Below are positions 28,435-62,905 of a DNA stretch of 64,000 nucleotides, piece after piece; positions within the stretch are counted from its first letter, which is position 1; the number at the start of each line of letters is the position of its first letter. A program made the translations under genes and the position numbers. This DNA comes from Candidatus Nitrospira neomarina (GTDB lineage Bacteria > Nitrospirota > Nitrospiria > Nitrospirales > UBA8639). The stretch lies in assembly GCF_032051675.1 (NCBI RefSeq), contig NZ_CP116968.1, forward strand, positions 3,837,001 to 3,901,000, in the 5' to 3' direction. The notes beneath the pieces were generated by a model. The model was not told the DNA's origin. It made no database searches and worked only from the letters and a program-made list of their open reading frames with translations.

Positions 28435-29640
28435 ATGGCCAATGAAACAAAAGAGGAAAATCATTCTATCACCCAGGCGGTCAGCCAGCGATACGCTAAA
28501 GCGGTGACCAACGGTGAACAGTTGTGTTGCCCGACCGGGTACAACCATGAAGATTTGGGACAATTTATCCCAGAGCCGGTCCTAAAGGTGTCCTATGGCT
28601 GCGGAACTCCGGTTGGCCTTTCAACTGTCCAACCTGGGGAAGTCGTCCTGGACATTGGTTCTGGAGGCGGGATCGATTGTTTTGAAGCGTCCCGGAAAGT
28701 CGGGCCCCGAGGGCGTGTCATTGGAATTGATATGACCGATGAAATGTTGGCCTTGGCGCGTACGCATGCACCAACAGTTGCCGGCAATCTGGGTTATCCG
28801 GAGCCGAATGTGGACTTTCGAAAGGGATTTGCCGACGCCATGCCTGTTGAAGACGATCAGGTGGATCTCATTATTTCGAATTGTGTCATAAATCTCGCTC
28901 CGGATAAGAAGAAGGTCTTCCAGGAAATGTTTCGCGTGCTCCGACCTGGTGGACGGTTCACCATTTCCGATATTGTTGCCGACCAACCAATTCCTAATTA
29001 CTTAATCTATGACAAGGCCAAATGGGGCGATTGTTTGTCTGGTGCCCTTACGATCAAAGACTATTGGGGCGGGCTTCGGGAAGCCGGGTTCAAAGGGCTT
29101 CATCAGGTTAATAGTATTCCATGGAGAGTGATTGACGGTATCCAGTTCTTTTCTGTGACTCTCACCGGGTATAAACTGGTCTCCACATCGACCACTCCGT
29201 CGTCGGTCTTTGCAACCCTCACCGGGCCATTCTCTCAAGTGCTGGATGAGCTGGGTACCACTTTTACTCGAGGCAATCCTCAGCAAATCGATGAACGAAC
29301 GGCCGAATTATTGGCCTTAGCTCCTTATCATGAACGGTTCATTGTTGACGAGAAACCGGTGGCTCTGGCGGTTCAAGATTCCCGAATGCTGGCCGTCTTT
29401 CCCGAAGAAGCGCCTTGTATTTGGGAAGGACAATTTGCCGTGTTGACAGGACCGTTTTTAGAGGTCTGTGACGATGACCACCACACCTTTCAATGCGGTG
29501 AGCCGGTAGAAATTTGTTCTAAAACGCACAAGGTCCTCCAGACCACTTCTTATCAACCCTATTTTGCGATTATCAATCGATCCAGAGAGGGCGTGGACTC
29601 CGAACCCGTCATTTGCGGTCCATCAACGGGGTGTTGTTAG
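28435..29640 (+). CDS. arsM: Arsenite S-adenosylmethionine methyltransferase
   Basis: The 401-residue product has the ArsM pattern: SYGCGTPVGL (Cys56), the SAM-binding loop VVLDIGSGGGIDCF, NCVINLAPDKKKVFQEMFRVL (Cys150) and GDCLSGALT (Cys200). The three cysteines are the arsenite-binding set of the family. ArsM methylates As(III) stepwise using SAM. About 150 residues follow the catalytic domain and end in GCC. The gene is 53 bases upstream of arsS and probably co-transcribed; together they encode the known route from arsenite to dimethylated arsenosugar. Confidence 0.9.
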   Translation: MANETKEENHSITQAVSQRYAKAVTNGEQLCCPTGYNHEDLGQFIPEPVLKVSYGCGTPVGLSTVQPGEVVLDIGSGGGIDCFEASRKVGPRGRVIGIDMTDEMLALARTHAPTVAGNLGYPEPNVDFRKGFADAMPVEDDQVDLIISNCVINLAPDKKKVFQEMFRVLRPGGRFTISDIVADQPIPNYLIYDKAKWGDCLSGALTIKDYWGGLREAGFKGLHQVNSIPWRVIDGIQFFSVTLTGYKLVSTSTTPSSVFATLTGPFSQVLDELGTTFTRGNPQQIDERTAELLALAPYHERFIVDEKPVALAVQDSRMLAVFPEEAPCIWEGQFAVLTGPFLEVCDDDHHTFQCGEPVEICSKTHKVLQTTSYQPYFAIINRSREGVDSEPVICGPSTGCC

Positions 29641-29693
29641 GAACCCCGAAAAATCACCCTGTCGGTGTGTGAGGAATTAAGGCCATCAAAACA

Positions 29694-30704
29694 ATGAAAA
29701 CTTCAGCTCTCCCCATGGTTGCCCCGGATCAATCTTCCGGGATAGTTCCGTCGTTCGAGAAAGCGTTGGCCCTCCATCATTCGCTTCCCCTCATGGCTCA
29801 ATCGATTTCCACACTTCAGGTCAATGTCGGGAAGGTTTGTAACCAAACCTGTCACCATTGCCATGTCGATGCCGGACCTCAACGGACGGAAAGCATGAGC
29901 AAAGCCACCATGGATCAGATCCTGGACGTTCTCGATCGCACTCCTCAGATTATGACGGTAGATATCACCGGTGGGGCGCCTGAGATGAACCCGCATTTTG
30001 AATATCTGGTTGAGCAATGTCGGGTACGAAATCGAAAGGTGATCGACCGCTGTAATTTGACGGTGTTCTATGTCAAGGGGAAATCGCATCTTCCTCAATT
30101 TCTTGCAGACCATCAGGTTGACATCGTCGCCTCCCTCCCCTGTTATGAAGCAAACAATGTCGATCAGCAAAGGGGAAAAGGCGTGTTTAATCGGAGCATT
30201 ACCGCGCTGCAGACTCTCAATGACTTGGGGTATGGTTTAGACGGAACCGGTCTCATGCTGGATCTGGTCTATAACCCGCTGGGCCCTGTCCTTCCACCGC
30301 CTCAAGTCGAACTAGAACAGGACTTTAAAGAAGAATTGGGGCAGCGATACGGCATTCAGTTTAACCGCCTATATACGATTACCAATATGCCGATCAGTCG
30401 TTTCTGGGATGAATTACGCGAGGTAGGACAACTTGAGCATTACTACACGCTCTTATTAAATAATTTCAATCCAATGGCTGTCGATGGGCTGATGTGTCGG
30501 TCTCTGCTGAGTGTGGGATGGGATGGGCGCCTCTATGACTGTGATTTCAATCAAATGTTGGATCTGCCGGTACAGCCGGAATCTCAAGCCTGGATAGACC
30601 GGTTCAATTCGACGGAACTGAAACACCGACGAATTGCGGTCGGACCCCATTGCCTGGGATGTACGGCAGGTTCCGGTTCATCGTGTGGTGGCGCCCTGAC
30701 CTAA
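29694..30704 (+). CDS. arsS: Arsenosugar biosynthesis radical SAM protein ArsS
   Basis: A radical SAM enzyme of 336 residues with the CxxxCxxC cluster site Cys49, Cys53 and Cys56 in KVCNQTCHHC. Two further Cys groups follow: CRSLLSVGWDGRLYDCDFNQM and the C-terminal CLGCTAGSGSSCGG. This matches ArsS (DUF3641 C-terminus), which transfers the 5'-deoxyadenosyl group of SAM to dimethylarsinous acid in arsenosugar formation. Its adjacency to arsM supports the call. The ATG lies beyond a weak ribosome binding site. Confidence 0.9.
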   Translation: MKTSALPMVAPDQSSGIVPSFEKALALHHSLPLMAQSISTLQVNVGKVCNQTCHHCHVDAGPQRTESMSKATMDQILDVLDRTPQIMTVDITGGAPEMNPHFEYLVEQCRVRNRKVIDRCNLTVFYVKGKSHLPQFLADHQVDIVASLPCYEANNVDQQRGKGVFNRSITALQTLNDLGYGLDGTGLMLDLVYNPLGPVLPPPQVELEQDFKEELGQRYGIQFNRLYTITNMPISRFWDELREVGQLEHYYTLLLNNFNPMAVDGLMCRSLLSVGWDGRLYDCDFNQMLDLPVQPESQAWIDRFNSTELKHRRIAVGPHCLGCTAGSGSSCGGALT

Positions 30705-40749: not shown

Positions 40750-41184
40750 ATGGGAGAGGTTGATACATCGCCAGCAGTTGCCTCCAAGGTCATGGAGGAT
40801 CTCACGGCGTTAGATGTGGATCCGGACAAATGTCAGCGTCTCTATAAGGCTGCGCTGATTCAGTCGAGTACAGGCGTGACCTATCGGATGTTGTCCAGGA
40901 TCCTTGAGACCGGAAAGGTGGATATCGTCCACTATGCCTGTGACTTGGATGCAGAAGGTAAGCCGACGACGAAGTGGAAGATCAGGCGTATCCTTGAGCA
41001 AGCCCCCGAACGGTTCGACAAGGAGGTTGAGGCCATCAAGAAGTCCATTGCCGACGAGAGTGAGACCGTGAAGGGCGCATGGGTGCATGATATGACTGAG
41101 CTCCCTGACGTGCCGGCACAGGGGAAGAGCCTGGATGAGTGGTCGCGCAGCATGACCACAGAGGTGAAGAAGAAACCAGGCTAG
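40750..41184 (+). CDS. Hypothetical protein, unknown family
   Basis: The 144-residue product starts behind a strong GGGAGGAA. It is soluble, charged and mostly helical by eye, with no signal peptide. The middle has VDIVHYACDLDAEGKPTTKW and the C-terminus is Lys-rich. I do not recognise it. Convergent with the ATP-grasp gene; a fragment of the dispersed repeat follows its stop codon directly. Confidence 0.65.
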   Translation: MGEVDTSPAVASKVMEDLTALDVDPDKCQRLYKAALIQSSTGVTYRMLSRILETGKVDIVHYACDLDAEGKPTTKWKIRRILEQAPERFDKEVEAIKKSIADESETVKGAWVHDMTELPDVPAQGKSLDEWSRSMTTEVKKKPG

Positions 41185-41241: not shown

Positions 41242-42531
41242 TCAAAATCTCATGGCTTTTAAGTGAGGTGAGGATGGCGATATGTCGGCTGTCGGTGGTG
41301 AAGCGCTTATGACGACCGTCAATCGTTGGTGAGCCTCACGAAGCGAGCGCTCCACATCATCCGGTGTCTTGCCTCGTGCTAAGAGAAAGCCTAAGTAGCG
41401 TGTCCCTTCCGGAAGCGGAATGAGTGCTTCTCCAGGCTCTGCTGTTATCGTCAGCTCGACAATTCCTGGTACCGCCTTGGCTTCAGTTTGCCCCCTTACT
41501 TCATGTAACCTCCCGCTATACGGAATCGGAAGCATCATGACTCCCGCCGCCTGCTCTTGCCGGATGAGAGGAGGAATCGGCATCCGGAGTGCGTGGCGAA
41601 GGATCAGTTCTTCGAGCGATATGCCTGCCGAAAAGTCCAGCGTTCTGGAGCAGCGTCCGCCGATGGCTCGTGCCGCCATCTCAATGACCCACACGCCGCT
41701 CTCATTCAAGCGGAACTCCCCATGCACCGGCCCTTCCCGGAGTCCGAGTGCCGTTGCCGTTCGATCTGCGCAGTCCACAACTTGCTGTTGTCGGGTGGAG
41801 GAGAGACGGGAAGGCGTGATATAGAGGGTCTCCTCAAAGTAAGGGCCGTCGAGCGGATCAGGTTTATCAAACATCGCCAGCGGCTGGAAGACTCCCTTTG
41901 TGAGCAGACCCTCCAACGCCACTTCGATTCCCGGGACAAAATCTTCGGCGAGGATCCAGTTGGCCTGCTCGTCCACTGCTGCCAGATCTAAGTTGATGAG
42001 GAGGGTGCCCACCCGACGGAACGCATTTTCAAACTCCTGTTCGTCATTGGCACGAATCACCCCACAACTGGCGGAAAGAATGAGAGGTTTTACGACGCAG
42101 GGATAGACCACCTGCTTTGCGAAGGCTTTCGAATCGCCGTCGAGGGGGAATACCTTATGGGAAGGAACAGGAATGCCCTGTCGGGACAATAATTCTCGCA
42201 TCTGCCGCTTGTTTCTGGCGGCGGTGACGGACGCGACAGAGTTATGGGGTAATCCGACTGCTTCCGCGATGGCAGCAGCTGTGACAGCGGTCACGTCGTC
42301 GACTCCGATCACCGCATCGATCGGGTGATGTCGGATGAATGCGATTACAGTCCGGGCGGCGGCCTGTGGGTGTCGAACATCGAGTAGCAACACGTTGTCC
42401 GACGCGACGAGAAGGTCTTCCGGAGCCTGCTCTGTCCCAATGGTTACGGATACCTGCACCCGTTGGGCTGCTTCGAGAAACGCCTCTGCTCGATAGGTTG
42501 TGGTCGGCAAAAGCAGGAGGAGCCTTGGCAT
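41242..42531 (-). CDS. ATP-grasp enzyme (carbamoyl-phosphate-synthetase-like / amino-acid ligase type)
   Basis: A 429-residue enzyme with the ATP-grasp layout. The N-terminal Rossmann-like part (residues 1-100) is followed by ARNKRQMRELLSRQGIPVP and the ATP-binding lysine segment YPCVVKPLILSASCGV. Then come AEDFVPGIEVALEGLL and the metal-binding VHGEFRLNESGVWVIEMAARAIGG. The last 120 residues form the extra domain seen in L-amino-acid ligases. It would form an amide or similar bond with ATP. It probably acts with the DUF169 and radical SAM genes on the same strand. No clear Shine-Dalgarno was found. Confidence 0.88.
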   Translation of the reverse strand: MPRLLLLLPTTTYRAEAFLEAAQRVQVSVTIGTEQAPEDLLVASDNVLLLDVRHPQAAARTVIAFIRHHPIDAVIGVDDVTAVTAAAIAEAVGLPHNSVASVTAARNKRQMRELLSRQGIPVPSHKVFPLDGDSKAFAKQVVYPCVVKPLILSASCGVIRANDEQEFENAFRRVGTLLINLDLAAVDEQANWILAEDFVPGIEVALEGLLTKGVFQPLAMFDKPDPLDGPYFEETLYITPSRLSSTRQQQVVDCADRTATALGLREGPVHGEFRLNESGVWVIEMAARAIGGRCSRTLDFSAGISLEELILRHALRMPIPPLIRQEQAAGVMMLPIPYSGRLHEVRGQTEAKAVPGIVELTITAEPGEALIPLPEGTRYLGFLLARGKTPDDVERSLREAHQRLTVVISASPPTADISPSSPHLKAMRF

Positions 42532-42673
42532 CGTGATTTCTTAAAAGGAGGCTGGAAAATTCCGTGAGCTTCGTGCCTGCATGGTTCGGATTTTTAATAT
42601 ACAGGAGAGAGGGTACGATTAAGCGGTTCTATGGTTTTCCAACTTCCTGCCAGGAGGCAGTTGGAGCGAATAT

Positions 42674-43372
42674 TTACAAGCGGGATCGATGAAACACCTC
42701 CAATTGGCGATTGGCCTCGGTGATGACTGCCAACTTACCCACGACGTCGGCCACTCTGGCACCGGGAATGGCGTAGTAGCCCTCATCGTTCCCGAGTCCG
42801 GTGTAGACGCGGTTTCCGATACAGCCAAAACTGGTCGCCGCATGTCCCGATTGCAGTGATTCCGGCAACACAGCGCAGGTCGGCCGTCCCATGGTCGCAC
42901 TGCCGCCGGGTACGCCCGCTGCCTGTGTCGCTTCTGCCAGAAGCATCAGCTGTTTGACGGTCCCTCGAACCAGCACCACGTCCGGAGTGAAAGTGGCCTG
43001 GATGAGTGGCGCATAGACGGCCACGTGAAAGGTCTCTTCTCGATGCGGGATCATCGGAATTTCTTTCATCGTAAGGTACTGCATGTCCACCATCGTCTGT
43101 ACCAGACCGTTCAGCTCCGTCGCGACCTGGGGTGGGAGCTCCACACCGTGGGTATGGGCTCCGACCGGACAACCAAAGTGATCCGATCCTTCCGTATAGA
43201 AGGCCTGGCCCTCAGCCGCGAGCTTCCAATAGCCGCATCCTGCCGGTGCAGGAGTGGTGACCCGTGGAATACCCGGAGGTGCAGTATTCCGAAATGCGAT
43301 GGCCACTGCGGGGATTTTTAATCCTAAAAGTTCCTGTATCTTCGTGCCTTGAATTTTGAGTTCAGATTCCAC
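42674..43372 (-). CDS. DUF169-family protein
   Basis: GTG start behind AAGGGGATGAG. The 232-residue product has DUF169 features: KIPAVAIAF near the start, CGYWKLAAEGQAFYTEGSD, HFGCPVGAHTHG, and the SATMGRPTCAVLP and TSFGCIGNRVYTGL segments with conserved cysteines. The biochemical role of DUF169 is not established. Position between the ATP-grasp and radical SAM genes suggests a shared pathway. Convincing length and motifs for the family. Confidence 0.85.
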   Translation of the reverse strand: MESELKIQGTKIQELLGLKIPAVAIAFRNTAPPGIPRVTTPAPAGCGYWKLAAEGQAFYTEGSDHFGCPVGAHTHGVELPPQVATELNGLVQTMVDMQYLTMKEIPMIPHREETFHVAVYAPLIQATFTPDVVLVRGTVKQLMLLAEATQAAGVPGGSATMGRPTCAVLPESLQSGHAATSFGCIGNRVYTGLGNDEGYYAIPGARVADVVGKLAVITEANRQLEVFHRSRL

Positions 43373-43741
43373 GTCTCATCCCCTTCTCAACTCTATATGT
43401 GCCTCATCTATCCATTTTTGTAGGATGCTAAAAAATCCGCCAGCGTCGTTCCCTGCCTTCGCCGCGCTTCCTTCGCCGAAGTAGCTACCAAGGCTGAAAG
43501 CGGCTTCGCGTCTACGCGCTGGAGCACGCTTCGACGCGCAAGCGCGCAGGCAGGTCGCTTCGTTCAGACCCTCAACGTAGAGGGTCTGCCTCGGGCCTTC
43601 ACTTGCTGCGGCCTTCCCTTCGAGGGCCTCAGGACAGGACTTGACGGCTCTTTTGAGTATCCTGCGTGAGCATTTTTCTATTTTGCCACATTTGGGGTCT
43701 ATCGAGGCCTCAGCGAGCCAACATCGTTCTCTGACAGCCTA
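43373..43741. other. Intergenic, mostly repeat
   Basis: Almost all of this 369-base gap is the dispersed repeat listed at 43421-43665. The remaining bases hold no gene. The repeat separates the radical SAM gene from the DUF169 gene and may break their co-transcription. Confidence 0.6.
43421..43665. repeat. Dispersed MITE-like repeat, copy 2
   Basis: Left end TAGGATGCTAAAAAATCCGC and right end CTCTTTTGAGTATCCTGC form an imperfect inverted repeat. Interior blocks match copy 1, with about 70 extra bases [16 protein letters not shown] short palindromes such as GACCCTC...GAGGGTC and GCTTCGACGCGCAAGCGCGC. Non-coding; located within the radical SAM / DUF169 / ATP-grasp cluster. Confidence 0.8.
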
Positions 43742-45259
43742 CTAGATTTCCCCATGCCCCTTTGTCAGCAACGGCCTGAACTGCTGGGTTGTCGGCTCAG
43801 CGCAGCAGAACCATGATTCCGTTAACCGGGGGGGCTTCGGACGATCATGCCTGCTCACCCTTGTCCGAGTCGAGGTCTCAGCGGGCCGCCCGGCTATTTT
43901 ATCGGCACTCGCTCGAATACGATCAAAGGTTACCATCGCATCTTCCTCTTCCTTGGCACTCGCTTCCACGATCGCACTCACCGCCTGATGTAGTTGATCC
44001 ATCCGCTCATCCGGATGTGTCCATGGATACTGAAAGCTGGCTTGATCCAGTGGACCGAGAAACTTCTGAATGTCGGACTTGGCGAGAAGTGCCGAGCCGG
44101 GCGGCACCAAGAGACGAATGCTCAACTGTACGGGGTCGGTCGCGTCGATCAGATCGTGGTCTTCCACCATGTCCAACATATGAAGGTAATCGTCTAGGCT
44201 GGTCCAGGGCGTGAAGGCCACGAGCGACGGGCGAAGCGTGATGCCGGCTTCGCGCAGAATGGCGAGCGCCGTGATGATATCAGTTCCTGTATGCCCCTTG
44301 TCTAACAGTTTCAGAACATTGTTGCTGAACGACTCCACTGCGGAGATGATGAACAGACAACCCTGTGCTTCAAGGTCCGGCATCAGAGTACGGTGCTTCA
44401 AAAGGTGTTCGATCTTTGCGGTGAAATCAAAGGTCAGATGCGGAAACTCCTCATGCATCCTGCGAACAATGTTGAGGGAATGCCCAGGCCCGTTCAAAAA
44501 ATCAGGATCGCCGAAAGTGATATGCGTTGCGCCTGAATGTACTTGATGCCGAATGTCCTCGAGGACAACGGCCTCCGGGACAAGGAAGAATCGCCCTTCA
44601 TAGACCGGCACGATGGGGCAATGAAGGCAAAGATGAAGGCATCCACGACTGGTCTCGACGTACCCGACCAGTCGTTCTGTCCCGTTCTCTTCGAGCCGGG
44701 CATATTGTTCCAGCATCGGGAGTCCTGTCCGACTTGGGATTGGTTGGGACGTTGTTGAAGTGGTTGAGTAGGGCCGCTTCAAATAGGGGGCAACGACCAG
44801 GTTTGGAAAGCTCACTCCCTCGAGATGTTTGATCGTCTGACCTCCATCGAGTGTCTCAATGAGTGATCGTAGCGGAAGCTCATATTCTCCGCCCACCACA
44901 GTATCGGCCAACTCCTGAAGCAAATATTCCGCATTGATCGAGGCGTACAGGCCATAGAAACAGATGTGGCAGGCTGGATTTATTTCGCGAATCAGCTCGG
45001 CTACGCGCACCCCAAGCCTGAGGGCGGTGTGCATGGGTACCGAGATCCCGACAAATCTGGCGAGCCTGAGAGCCGGTTCATCAATGGTTTCAACGGCGAT
45101 GTCGAGGCCAACTGGCGAATACCCGGCTTGCTCGAGAAATCCCATCGGCTGGGCGATGCCAAGAGGTTGGTGGCCCAATTCATAACAGGAGACCAACATG
45201 ATCGCGCCCGGTTCCCTGAGCAACAATCGTTCTATTGTAGGTTCGGTAACGTGTTCCAT
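43742..45259 (-). CDS. B12-binding-type radical SAM protein with CCAEP tail
   Basis: Start chosen at 45259 (MEHVTEPTIE); a TTG further upstream (45400) is less likely. Residues 20-140 resemble the B12-binding/Rossmann domain (GLDIAVETIDEPALRLARFV). The radical SAM domain has Cys207, Cys211 and Cys214 in SRGCLHLCLHCP, then HITFGDPDFLNGP. Near the C-terminus, ESWFCCAEPTTQQ carries Cys485-Cys486-Ala-Glu-Pro, the tail of the CUAEP/CCAEP radical SAM (seleno)protein group; here both are Cys codons (TGC TGC), so no selenocysteine is needed. Substrate unknown; the DUF169 and ATP-grasp neighbours suggest a small-molecule or peptide-modifying pathway. Confidence 0.85.
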   Translation of the reverse strand: MEHVTEPTIERLLLREPGAIMLVSCYELGHQPLGIAQPMGFLEQAGYSPVGLDIAVETIDEPALRLARFVGISVPMHTALRLGVRVAELIREINPACHICFYGLYASINAEYLLQELADTVVGGEYELPLRSLIETLDGGQTIKHLEGVSFPNLVVAPYLKRPYSTTSTTSQPIPSRTGLPMLEQYARLEENGTERLVGYVETSRGCLHLCLHCPIVPVYEGRFFLVPEAVVLEDIRHQVHSGATHITFGDPDFLNGPGHSLNIVRRMHEEFPHLTFDFTAKIEHLLKHRTLMPDLEAQGCLFIISAVESFSNNVLKLLDKGHTGTDIITALAILREAGITLRPSLVAFTPWTSLDDYLHMLDMVEDHDLIDATDPVQLSIRLLVPPGSALLAKSDIQKFLGPLDQASFQYPWTHPDERMDQLHQAVSAIVEASAKEEEDAMVTFDRIRASADKIAGRPAETSTRTRVSRHDRPKPPRLTESWFCCAEPTTQQFRPLLTKGHGEI

Positions 45260-47152: not shown

Positions 47153-48277
47153 TCAGCTGGCAATGCCTTCCCGACCCAACAAGCTTCTTAAACTCTGAAT
47201 CACCGGAAAAACTTCCTGGTTCCAATCGGCGCCCTGGCGATCATAGGCTTTCTGTTCTTCCTCGACAATCCACCGGTCTTGTGCAAAAATTCCATTGGTA
47301 AACCACACAATAAACGGCCACAAGAGGTGGATGAGCCCGGGAATTGAAGGTTTCCTGACCATCATCAACCCAAAGGTGTGATTGATTCGTTGGGCAGGAT
47401 CAACGGGAACATACACATTCCAGAGATTTAATGCGGGGTGAATACTTCCGGCTGTCCAAAACTGGAGCGTTTGATAGGGATAGTTGGTACAGATGGTCAT
47501 CAGATCATGCTTTGGCCCACCTGCTGATTCTTTGGTTCTTCCTAGAATGAGTTTCTCTCCGAGTGGTTGGGCGCCTTTGATTCGAGAGAAGGTGTAATCG
47601 ACTTCCACGGCATGCGGCCGCTCTCGAAGTTCCAGAAAGACCGTTCGGATCCCGCCCATGAGTCGACGATGCAAAAACTGATGGTTCATATCCATTAGGT
47701 TCTCATGCATGAATGAGTAATGGCAGCCCACCTGACGGTCAAGGTATCGAGTTTTATATTGTGGATCATCTGCGAAGGATATATCAGGGAACTCGATCTC
47801 ATTCACCCGGCCCGCTGCCCCCGGAAACACAAATACCAGCCCATAGGCTTCACGACAGGGAAAACTCCTGACTCCTGCTGGTCGTGGTTGGTTTTTTTCT
47901 AAATAGGGTACACCCATGCATCGCCCTGTCCGGTCAAATGTCCAGGAATGATACCCACACTGGACATGCTCTCCATGCACCACCCCGCAATGGAGCGGTA
48001 CCTGCCGATGGGCGCATCGGTCTTCGAGCGCATAGACGATGCCGTTTTCGGTTCGGACTAACACGATGGGATTGCCGGCAAAGGACACTCCAAGCATTTT
48101 TCCCTTTTTCAGATCTCTGGAGCGTGCGAGCGGATACCAATTGTCCGGGTGAAGACCTGTTTTTCGTAAATCAGATGTGAGAGGCGATTTCCCGGGTCGG
48201 GAGGCAGAGCCTTCAAGAACAATGAGAGCGTCGCTTACTTTCTGTCTGTCTAAGTGCATTTGAGATTGTTTATTCAT
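47153..48277 (-). CDS. Rieske non-haem iron oxygenase, alpha-subunit type
   Basis: Start at 48277 (MNKQSQMHLD) with TTGGAG upstream; 48301 is in frame too. The Rieske [2Fe-2S] site has Cys88, His90, Cys107 and His110 (EDRCAHRQVPLHCG / QCGYHSW). The mononuclear iron site shows ENLMDMNHQFLH with His199 and His203. Enzymes of this type hydroxylate or demethylate aromatic or polycyclic substrates using O2 and electrons from a separate reductase, which is not encoded here. A hydrophobic stretch near 320-340 (LIHLLWPFIVWFTNG) could associate with the membrane. Substrate unknown. Confidence 0.9.
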   Translation of the reverse strand: MNKQSQMHLDRQKVSDALIVLEGSASRPGKSPLTSDLRKTGLHPDNWYPLARSRDLKKGKMLGVSFAGNPIVLVRTENGIVYALEDRCAHRQVPLHCGVVHGEHVQCGYHSWTFDRTGRCMGVPYLEKNQPRPAGVRSFPCREAYGLVFVFPGAAGRVNEIEFPDISFADDPQYKTRYLDRQVGCHYSFMHENLMDMNHQFLHRRLMGGIRTVFLELRERPHAVEVDYTFSRIKGAQPLGEKLILGRTKESAGGPKHDLMTICTNYPYQTLQFWTAGSIHPALNLWNVYVPVDPAQRINHTFGLMMVRKPSIPGLIHLLWPFIVWFTNGIFAQDRWIVEEEQKAYDRQGADWNQEVFPVIQSLRSLLGREGIAS

Positions 48278-48385
48278 GAATATCTCCAAGAAAGAAAACA
48301 CTCGTGAAGGGAAAGGCCTGTGAAATTTCAGCGATATAGAGCAATAACCGGAATCGTATGAGGTTTTGGACTGGCATTACGCGAG

Positions 48386-61112: not shown

Positions 61113-61562
61113 CTACCCCGCGATTTCCTTAATGATGTCCCAGGCAGAAATAATTCCCACCAGTTGACGATCTCCTTCCACCACGGGCAGTAAATAAATC
61201 GTTTTCGGATTTTTCATGATCAAGGCTGCGCAGGCCAGTACGGAATCATTCGGTCGGGCACATGGAGGATGGGGGTTCATCACCTGCGTGACCGGGTTGG
61301 GTTTAAGTTCTCCAAGCCGTTCGTGGAACTGGGCAAGGTCCGGAGCAAAACGAACATCGGGAAGATCCCCTTGAGAAATGTAGGAAGGCATGGCCCGTTC
61401 AAGAATCTGCCAGAAATTCAGTGTTCCCAGTAACATCTTTTTCTCATCCACGACCGGTAAGTCTTGGTGGCGCAGATCCGCCATTTGGCGAAGGGCTTCC
61501 CCGATCGTACATTGTGGAAGGATGGTATGTGGCTGGCGGATCATGATGTCCTGAGCCTTCAT
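61113..61562 (-). CDS. CBS-pair protein coupled to a permease gene
   Basis: Start at 61562 (MKAQDIMIRQ), whose ATG overlaps the TGA of the permease gene (ATGA), indicating translational coupling. The 149-residue protein is a CBS pair: QDLPVVDEKKMLLGTLNFW and IYLLPVVEGDRQLVGIISAWD. A longer frame upstream lies inside the permease gene and is ignored. It may gate or sense for the ArsB/NhaD-family transporter by binding adenosine nucleotides (inference from coupling). Confidence 0.88.
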   Translation of the reverse strand: MKAQDIMIRQPHTILPQCTIGEALRQMADLRHQDLPVVDEKKMLLGTLNFWQILERAMPSYISQGDLPDVRFAPDLAQFHERLGELKPNPVTQVMNPHPPCARPNDSVLACAALIMKNPKTIYLLPVVEGDRQLVGIISAWDIIKEIAG

Positions 61563-62905
61563 AAATACCTCATCCAAATGTAAAGGGTGCTGATCAGTAT
61601 TTGTAAGATCATGAGTGGAAATGCCATTTTCAAAAATGGCAGAAATCGAAATGGCACGCCATTGCGTTCCGCGATCCCCGCCACAATCAAATTGGCGGAG
61701 GCTCCCACCAGTGTCCCATTTCCTCCTAAGCACGCACCCAACGATAATGCCCACCAGAGGGTTTCGGCCTGTTCAAGTGGAATCCCGGTCTGCTGAAAGA
61801 CCGGGAGCATGCTTTTGATCATGGGAATCATGGTGGCCACAAAGGGTATATTATCCACAATAGCGGAAAGAATAGCCGAAACCCAAAGAATGGTCAGGGT
61901 CGTAATCATGAAATTTCCTGCGGTGAGACTTAAGGTCCAATCGGCAATGGACTGTAAAAGGCCGGTATGTTCCACACCGGTGACGATAATGAACAAGCCG
62001 CAGAAAAAGAAAATGGTAATCCACTCCACCTGCCCGAATAATGCATGAACTTTATGCCCTGCCTGTTCGTTGTCTAAGGAAAATGTGACCAGTAACAGGA
62101 GCAGGGCGGCGCCACCCAGTGCAATGGTGGCGGGTTCCATGCCAATTGTATGGGCTAAGATAAATCCGAGAATAACCAGGCTAAAGACCAGGAGACAGTG
62201 TTTCAATAGACCAACATCCCGAATGGCCTCATATTCGTTAAAAGCCATAATGCGGGCTCGAGCTTCCGGTGATGCGAACATGGCTTTTCCAAACATAAAC
62301 CAAAGAGGGATGAGTGTGGCACAAAAGGCCACAATGGCGACGGGAGCCAGGTGAATCACAAAATCATTAAATGTCAAACTGGTGGCAGAGCCAATCATAA
62401 TGTTGGGGGGATCACCAATTAGCGTAGCGGTGCCCCCTGTATTCGAGGCATTAATCTCTGCGAAGAGCAGAGGATACGGATTGATTTTCAGCTCGTCAGC
62501 AATGAGCAGGGTAACCGGTGCGACCAACAGCACCGTAGTGACATTATCTAAAAATGCCGAGAGCACTGCGGTCACAATTGAAAGCATAACCAGGATGCCC
62601 CACGGACTGCCCTTGGCTGCCTTCGCGGCTTTGATCGCGAGAAATTGAAAGATGCCGCATTCTTTGGTAATTCCGACCAGGATCATCATGCCGGTGAGTA
62701 GGCCGATGGTATTGAAGTCAATGCCTTGAATCGCTTGGTCTTGTGTGAGGACTCCTGTTCCAATAACGGTAGCGGCTCCAAGAAGCGCTACAATTGCGCG
62801 ATTAAACCGTTCAGAGATAATGACCGCATAGGTCAATATTAAAATTGAGGTAGCCACCCAAAGTGGCGAGAGACCAAAGATGGTTTGAATAGGTGTTTCG
62901 TGCAT
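61559..62905 (-). CDS. ArsB/NhaD-family ion permease
   Basis: The 448-residue membrane protein has about 11-12 helices and the inverted-repeat plan of the ion transporter superfamily. Each half has a signature: FLDNVTTVLLVAPVTLL with GDPPNIMIGSATSLTFNDFV, and IVDNIPFVATMIPMIKSM with LGGNGTLVGASANLIVAG. Family members export Na+, arsenite or carry organic or inorganic anions. The substrate cannot be told from sequence. It is part of a minus-strand group with a SulP transporter upstream and a CBS protein downstream; the gap to the SulP gene is 33 bases. Confidence 0.88.
   Translation of the reverse strand: MHETPIQTIFGLSPLWVATSILILTYAVIISERFNRAIVALLGAATVIGTGVLTQDQAIQGIDFNTIGLLTGMMILVGITKECGIFQFLAIKAAKAAKGSPWGILVMLSIVTAVLSAFLDNVTTVLLVAPVTLLIADELKINPYPLLFAEINASNTGGTATLIGDPPNIMIGSATSLTFNDFVIHLAPVAIVAFCATLIPLWFMFGKAMFASPEARARIMAFNEYEAIRDVGLLKHCLLVFSLVILGFILAHTIGMEPATIALGGAALLLLLVTFSLDNEQAGHKVHALFGQVEWITIFFFCGLFIIVTGVEHTGLLQSIADWTLSLTAGNFMITTLTILWVSAILSAIVDNIPFVATMIPMIKSMLPVFQQTGIPLEQAETLWWALSLGACLGGNGTLVGASANLIVAGIAERNGVPFRFLPFLKMAFPLMILQILISTLYIWMRYL

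Follow-up and report, generated by a model that had tools for sequence, protein, structure and literature searches.

The window analysed here is a 64,000-nucleotide stretch of the chromosome of Candidatus Nitrospira neomarina (contig NZ_CP116968.1, positions 3,837,001 to 3,901,000), and our subject is a group of genes within it that centres on a radical S-adenosylmethionine (SAM) protein with a Cys-Cys-Ala-Glu-Pro (CCAEP) tail. The genes for this protein, for a DUF169 protein and for an ATP-grasp ligase all lie on the minus strand (Table 1), where an earlier reading of the DNA letters (the original prediction) had placed them, and profile scores far exceeding chance bear out the three families that it had named. 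It had overlooked a fourth member, the gene for a 144-aa protein, which was revealed by clustering the neighbouring proteins and adjoins almost every Nitrospirota copy of the radical SAM gene. The four genes form one co-inherited unit.

Table 1. Features of the CCAEP locus, in window coordinates.
Feature	Position	Strand	Details
144-aa protein without family, fourth member of the unit	40750..41184	+	convergent (tail-to-tail) with the ligase gene; 26/26 vs 1/72 genomes
ATP-grasp L-amino acid ligase (predicted), 429 aa	41242..42531	-	PF13535 and PF18603 (LAL_C2) above cut-off; PDB 3vot
DUF169 protein, 232 aa	42674..43372	-	GTG start; PF02596 (COG2043), 89.3 bits, gathering cut-off 27
DUF169 / radical SAM intergenic gap with dispersed repeat pieces	43400..43730		15 matches in the genome, its own site counted
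CCAEP-tail radical SAM protein, 505 aa	43742..45259	-	ATG start at 45259; NF040546, PF02310, PF04055
Cys-Cys-Ala-Glu-Pro tail motif	43793..43807	-	codons TGC TGC GCT GAG CCG

Co-inheritance and gene order in Nitrospirota

Among 98 related Nitrospirota genomes, the radical SAM gene was found in 26, a count in which two copies are fragments at contig ends and one has a split frame. DUF169 is present in 24 of these 26 and in none of the 72 negative genomes, the ligase (counted at E at most 1e-60) again in 24/26 and 0/72, both misses being contig ends, and the 144-aa protein in all 26 positives and a single negative, giving Fisher p values of ~1e-20 to 1e-22 that are not corrected for kinship. The survey of the three families that the original prediction had called for has therefore returned a nearly perfect co-occurrence. 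Presence is also patchy inside genera (10 of the 21 genomes of the window's own genus carry the radical SAM gene), and the association therefore rests on several gains or losses. Two gene orders were seen, radical SAM-DUF169-ligase as in the window and DUF169-radical SAM-ligase, with a DUF169 protein of ~30% identity in the second arrangement and the convergent 144-aa gene in both. The single genome that has the 144-aa protein and no radical SAM gene (G032:C2:419862-420257) may hold a relic, or the protein may have another role there.

Repeat elements had been said to interrupt the cluster, and dispersed repeats do occupy parts of the 369-base gap that separates the radical SAM gene from the DUF169 gene (43431-43464 and 43605-43656), with 14 further matches elsewhere on the same chromosome. 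Because the gap is absent from sister lineages (L042, L044), in which the same genes are spaced only 10-46 bases apart, we regard the repeats as having entered a compact operon late.

The ligase and its pairing with the radical SAM gene across phyla

The ligase carries PF13535 (ATP-grasp_4, 102 bits) and PF18603 (LAL_C2, 65 bits against a cut-off of 29.4), both above cut-off, and its closest solved structure is that of the L-amino acid ligase BL00235 (PDB 3vot, E 1.6e-38, 389 residues aligned). While the ATP-grasp family had been recognised in the original prediction, the more specific identity had not: by its domains and nearest structure the protein is predicted to be an L-amino acid ligase, i.e. 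a dipeptide synthase. It shares the ATP-grasp fold and LAL_C2 domain with BL00235/3vot, BacD and DdaF, but belongs to a subfamily of its own; across the 98 genomes, matches at E 1e-60 occur nowhere except next to the CCAEP gene.

Named relatives of the CCAEP protein come from Nitrospirota, Acidobacteriota, Rokubacteria, Ignavibacteriales and Thermomicrobium roseum. The radical SAM gene occurs in 50 of 297 acidobacterial genomes, and the ligase is encoded no more than ~4 kb away at 28 of 40 acidobacterial loci, often 12-200 bases downstream (ligase and DUF169 counts were taken by tblastn here; some picks of the longest open reading frame ran antisense to ligase or DUF169). Identities of the radical SAM protein and of the ligase are correlated over 52 loci (r = 0.92, a value reached in 0 of 2000 permutations of a Mantel test), and the two proteins coevolve across phyla. 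Nfu-type iron-sulfur (Fe-S) carriers are frequent at the acidobacterial loci, one of which (L153) reads radical SAM-Nfu-DUF169, and POT-family oligopeptide transporters adjoin the gene at seven of them. Aminotransferase, Nfu, major facilitator superfamily and POT neighbours recur inconstantly, and we take them as hints only. A phosphonate-type periplasmic binding protein is encoded near one acidobacterial CUAEP gene (L157, 12368-13231, minus strand).

These patterns bear on the view that the genes are adjacent by shared ancestry alone and serve separate pathways. Gene order in related genomes is indeed kept by descent, and the ligase is not nearby at 12 of the 40 acidobacterial loci (several of them on short contigs), yet the unit is gained and lost patchily within genera (Fisher p ~1e-20, kinship not corrected for), its membership stays constant while its order varies, DUF169 standing on either side of the radical SAM gene, and the radical SAM-ligase pairing holds across phyla. 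We consider such an explanation strongly disfavoured and very improbable.

The radical SAM protein, its tail and its kinship with ArsL

The radical SAM protein combines an N-terminal B12-binding-like domain (PF02310) with PF04055 and scores 676 bits against NF040546 (CUAEP/CCAEP-tail radical SAM (seleno)protein; curated cut-off 500), and both motifs of that family are present, the tail reading WFCCAEPT with its Cys pair at C485 and C486 and the CxxxCxxC cluster motif being formed by C207, C211 and C214. NCBI gives this family a name without a function, and we did not meet the name in the literature searched; the partners and the pathway are added by the present analysis, and it is the pathway, not the already named family, that is novel.

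After its own family, the next-best model is that of ArsL, the radical SAM enzyme in the biosynthesis of the arsenic antibiotic arsinothricin (NF040542, 325.8 bits), and the model after that reaches 47 bits. ArsL moves a 3-amino-3-carboxypropyl (ACP) group from SAM onto As(III), forming an ACP-arsenic bond (PMC8552651; Yao, JACS 2024, as cited in PMC12159101). ArsL proteins encoded on plasmids align with the radical SAM protein at 34-38% identity over ~410 aa, the Cys pair of CCAEP falling on the RCC of the ArsL tail RCCLKC, and ~50 residues are invariant across the two groups, those of RGCxHxCxxC and the first Cys of the tail among them. In the tree, the ArsL proteins make up a single long-branched clade, placed either next to the CCAEP group or within it. 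The two thus have in common the core RGCxHxCxxC, the motif [FY]ExGxQP, a C-terminal Cys pair and, in several genera, an ATP-grasp ligase in the cluster. They differ in that the CCAEP proteins end in WFC[CU]AEP, are often selenoproteins, lack arsR, arsM, arsN1, arsQ or an aquaporin alongside, and have DUF169 or Nfu and the 144-aa protein as partners. The original prediction had proposed an undescribed biosynthetic pathway without seeing this kinship; its proposal gains from the near-perfect co-occurrence, from the family name being absent from the literature searched and from the matching divergence across phyla.

The domain content also invites another assignment, in which the protein would be a methyltransferase that depends on B12, or another enzyme of the 5'-deoxyadenosyl type, and its substrate a peptide or amino acid that the ligase makes or releases, with the tail as a redox-active, reductase-like thiol pair. 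The B12-binding-like domain fits it, as do weak matches to numerous radical SAM methyltransferases of the B12 type, but those matches fall ~280 bits below that to ArsL and the unit yielded no precursor peptide gene, and we judge this assignment improbable.

That selenocysteine (Sec) sometimes replaces the tail Cys, as the original prediction had held, is confirmed by homologues. Acidobacterial tails mostly read WxC-UGA-AEP, the UGA standing at the second Cys position, and 3' of it lies a hairpin like a selenocysteine insertion sequence, with a 7-pair stem, an AGUU- or AGGU-type loop and several pair types at most positions. Across 36 distinct UGA tails, 85% of cells in the stem are paired vs 69% (maximum 75%) in shuffled controls, while the Cys forms at the same stem pair at chance (37% vs 36% shuffled). 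SelB passes its cut-off in 19 of the 20 UGA genomes and in 3 of the 15 Cys genomes (3/6 acidobacterial, 0/9 Nitrospirota), so that in-frame UGA, downstream hairpin and SelB are all found for the homologues. The window protein is the Cys form, both tail codons being TGC, and its genome has no SelB above cut-off. The UGA codon and the covarying hairpin in the tail imply that the tail is chemically active. On a Thermomicrobium roseum plasmid (L082, NC_011961.1, 9953-11389), the annotated CUAEP protein ends at the tail UGA and is truncated, because the reading continues past it as C-U-AEP.

A possible pathway and its acceptor atom

Less can be said of the two remaining partners. Cysteines C46, C68, C166 and C184 of the DUF169 protein are invariant in all 19 aligned proteins, distant members included, and might conceivably fit an Fe-S or soft-metal protein; the DUF169 literature searched gives no function. 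The 144-aa protein has no Pfam or NCBIfam match. A fold search with models of DUF169 (pLDDT 65) and of the 144-aa protein (pLDDT 70) matched no PDB entry significantly, the VIA-align Z not exceeding 6.2, and no plasmid relatives of either protein were found.

We tentatively read the unit, from its sequences, as a small biosynthetic operon that would make a dipeptide around an unusual amino acid via ArsL-like chemistry, with As(III) as leading candidate acceptor, a reading that we put forward as plausible and stop short of calling probable. In its favour are the wide margin by which ArsL leads among named relatives, the constancy of the ligase as partner, the ATP-grasp ligases of ArsL clusters, the POT transporters at seven acidobacterial loci and the implied activity of the tail; the reaction, the atom and the product are inferred. 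The radical SAM enzyme would cleave SAM in a noncanonical way and pass the ACP group to a soft atom X that the Cys-Cys or Cys-Sec tail would hold. The L-amino acid ligase would then activate a carboxylate with ATP and couple the ACP-derived amino acid to a second one. DUF169 would probably serve as electron supplier or soft-atom carrier, with an Nfu-type Fe-S carrier in its place in other phyla. By analogy only, bialaphos (phosphinothricin tripeptide) likewise delivers a glutamate-analogue warhead in a peptide; it is made through nonribosomal peptide synthetases and phosphonate chemistry, whereas the route proposed here would use an ATP-grasp enzyme and an ACP radical.

Arsenic as the acceptor is suggested by the Cys pair in the tail, by the core shared with ArsL and by probable arsenosugar synthesis in the host, and is the leading, though unproven, candidate. 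The arsenosugar assignment comes from an ArsM homologue followed by ArsS (TIGR04167, 454 bits) at 28435-30704 on the plus strand, ~11 kb from the CCAEP cluster. Like the proposed reaction, this would be organoarsenic radical SAM chemistry in the same genome, but ArsS belongs to another radical SAM family and the transfer to arsenic is that of a 5'-deoxyadenosyl group. The linkage of arsM/arsS to the cluster was rejected as evidence of a functional link because it is confined to the window and two close relatives (~15 kb), the genes lying on other contigs or at a distance elsewhere, and because ArsM is nearly universal.

Several observations weigh against an ArsL-like, arsenic-based pathway. 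The ArsL score lies below that model's cut-off of 450 bits, and the RCCLKC tail is not present, only the Cys pair aligning. The arsenic-cluster setting of ArsL is likewise lacking: arsM/arsS are nearby in the window only (close relatives aside), and 28 ars-cluster proteins (ArsR, ArsM, ArsN1, ArsB, ArsC, aquaporin and others) have no homologue in ~1.2 Mb around other CCAEP loci. Nearly all of the order carries ArsM (81 of the 98 Nitrospirota genomes), and no adjacent transporter or resistance gene recurs at the Nitrospirota loci. Finally, the ATP-grasp proteins of ArsL clusters are only 21-24% identical to the window ligase, and that ArsL-type enzymes recur together with amino acid ligases may perhaps reflect independent recruitment or convergence.

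An alternative keeps the ArsL-like ACP transfer and the ligation with an acceptor other than arsenic. The tail and DUF169 would hold or present a sulfur, selenium, phosphorus or metal-bound acceptor, and the product would be a dipeptide with a thiol-, seleno- or phospho-amino acid, for intracellular use. Outside the window ars genes are absent near CCAEP loci while ArsL loci are full of them, there is no obvious exporter in Nitrospirota, the residues past the Cys pair are wholly different (AEP vs LKC), and DUF169 or Nfu stand where ArsL loci have small proteins with a Cys-Cys tail. Against it, the tail Cys pair and catalytic core are common to ArsL, and an ArsM homologue is present in 25 of the 26 CCAEP-positive Nitrospirota, though also in most negatives; we think a non-arsenic acceptor rather unlikely.

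The ArsL-like reading with As(III) as acceptor has a counterpart in the plasmid ArsL clusters (L083, L084, L086, L197, L198) of Priestia, Alicyclobacillus, Pantoea and Klebsiella, which carry an ATP-grasp ligase gene whose product has an ATP-grasp_4 domain and, in two cases, a sub-threshold LAL_C2. The same clusters encode a CobW-like GTPase and a small protein, which ends in a Cys-Cys tail wherever its sequence was read. All three lie outside the published arsQML pathway, which suggests arsinothricin peptides; no link between arsinothricin and ATP-grasp was found in the literature searched. It is possible, if doubtful, that a widespread and undescribed pathway class exists, often with a selenoprotein, in which ArsL-type ACP transfer yields an amino acid with a heteroatom, from which a dedicated L-amino acid ligase makes a dipeptide, the arsinothricin clusters with ATP-grasp ligases being one branch that makes arsinothricin peptides. 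If true, the ArsL reaction, until now one rare antibiotic step, would gain a larger sister group spread over nitrite oxidisers, Acidobacteria, Thermomicrobia and others, and the way in which the acceptor atom is bound could be tested through the Cys-Sec tail. New amino acid analogues carried in peptides would be predicted, DUF169 would have its first pathway, and organo-element biosynthesis would be placed in key nitrogen-cycle bacteria.

Two other genes of the window may be mentioned. An ArsB/MamN-like ion transporter is encoded at 61559-62905 on the minus strand, scoring 201 bits for MamN and ~100 for ArsB models, all below cut-off. At 47153-48301, also on the minus strand, lies a Rieske oxygenase like the 4beta-methylsterol monooxygenase SdmA (161 bits, below the cut-off of 600), which stays beside the CCAEP cluster in close relatives only.
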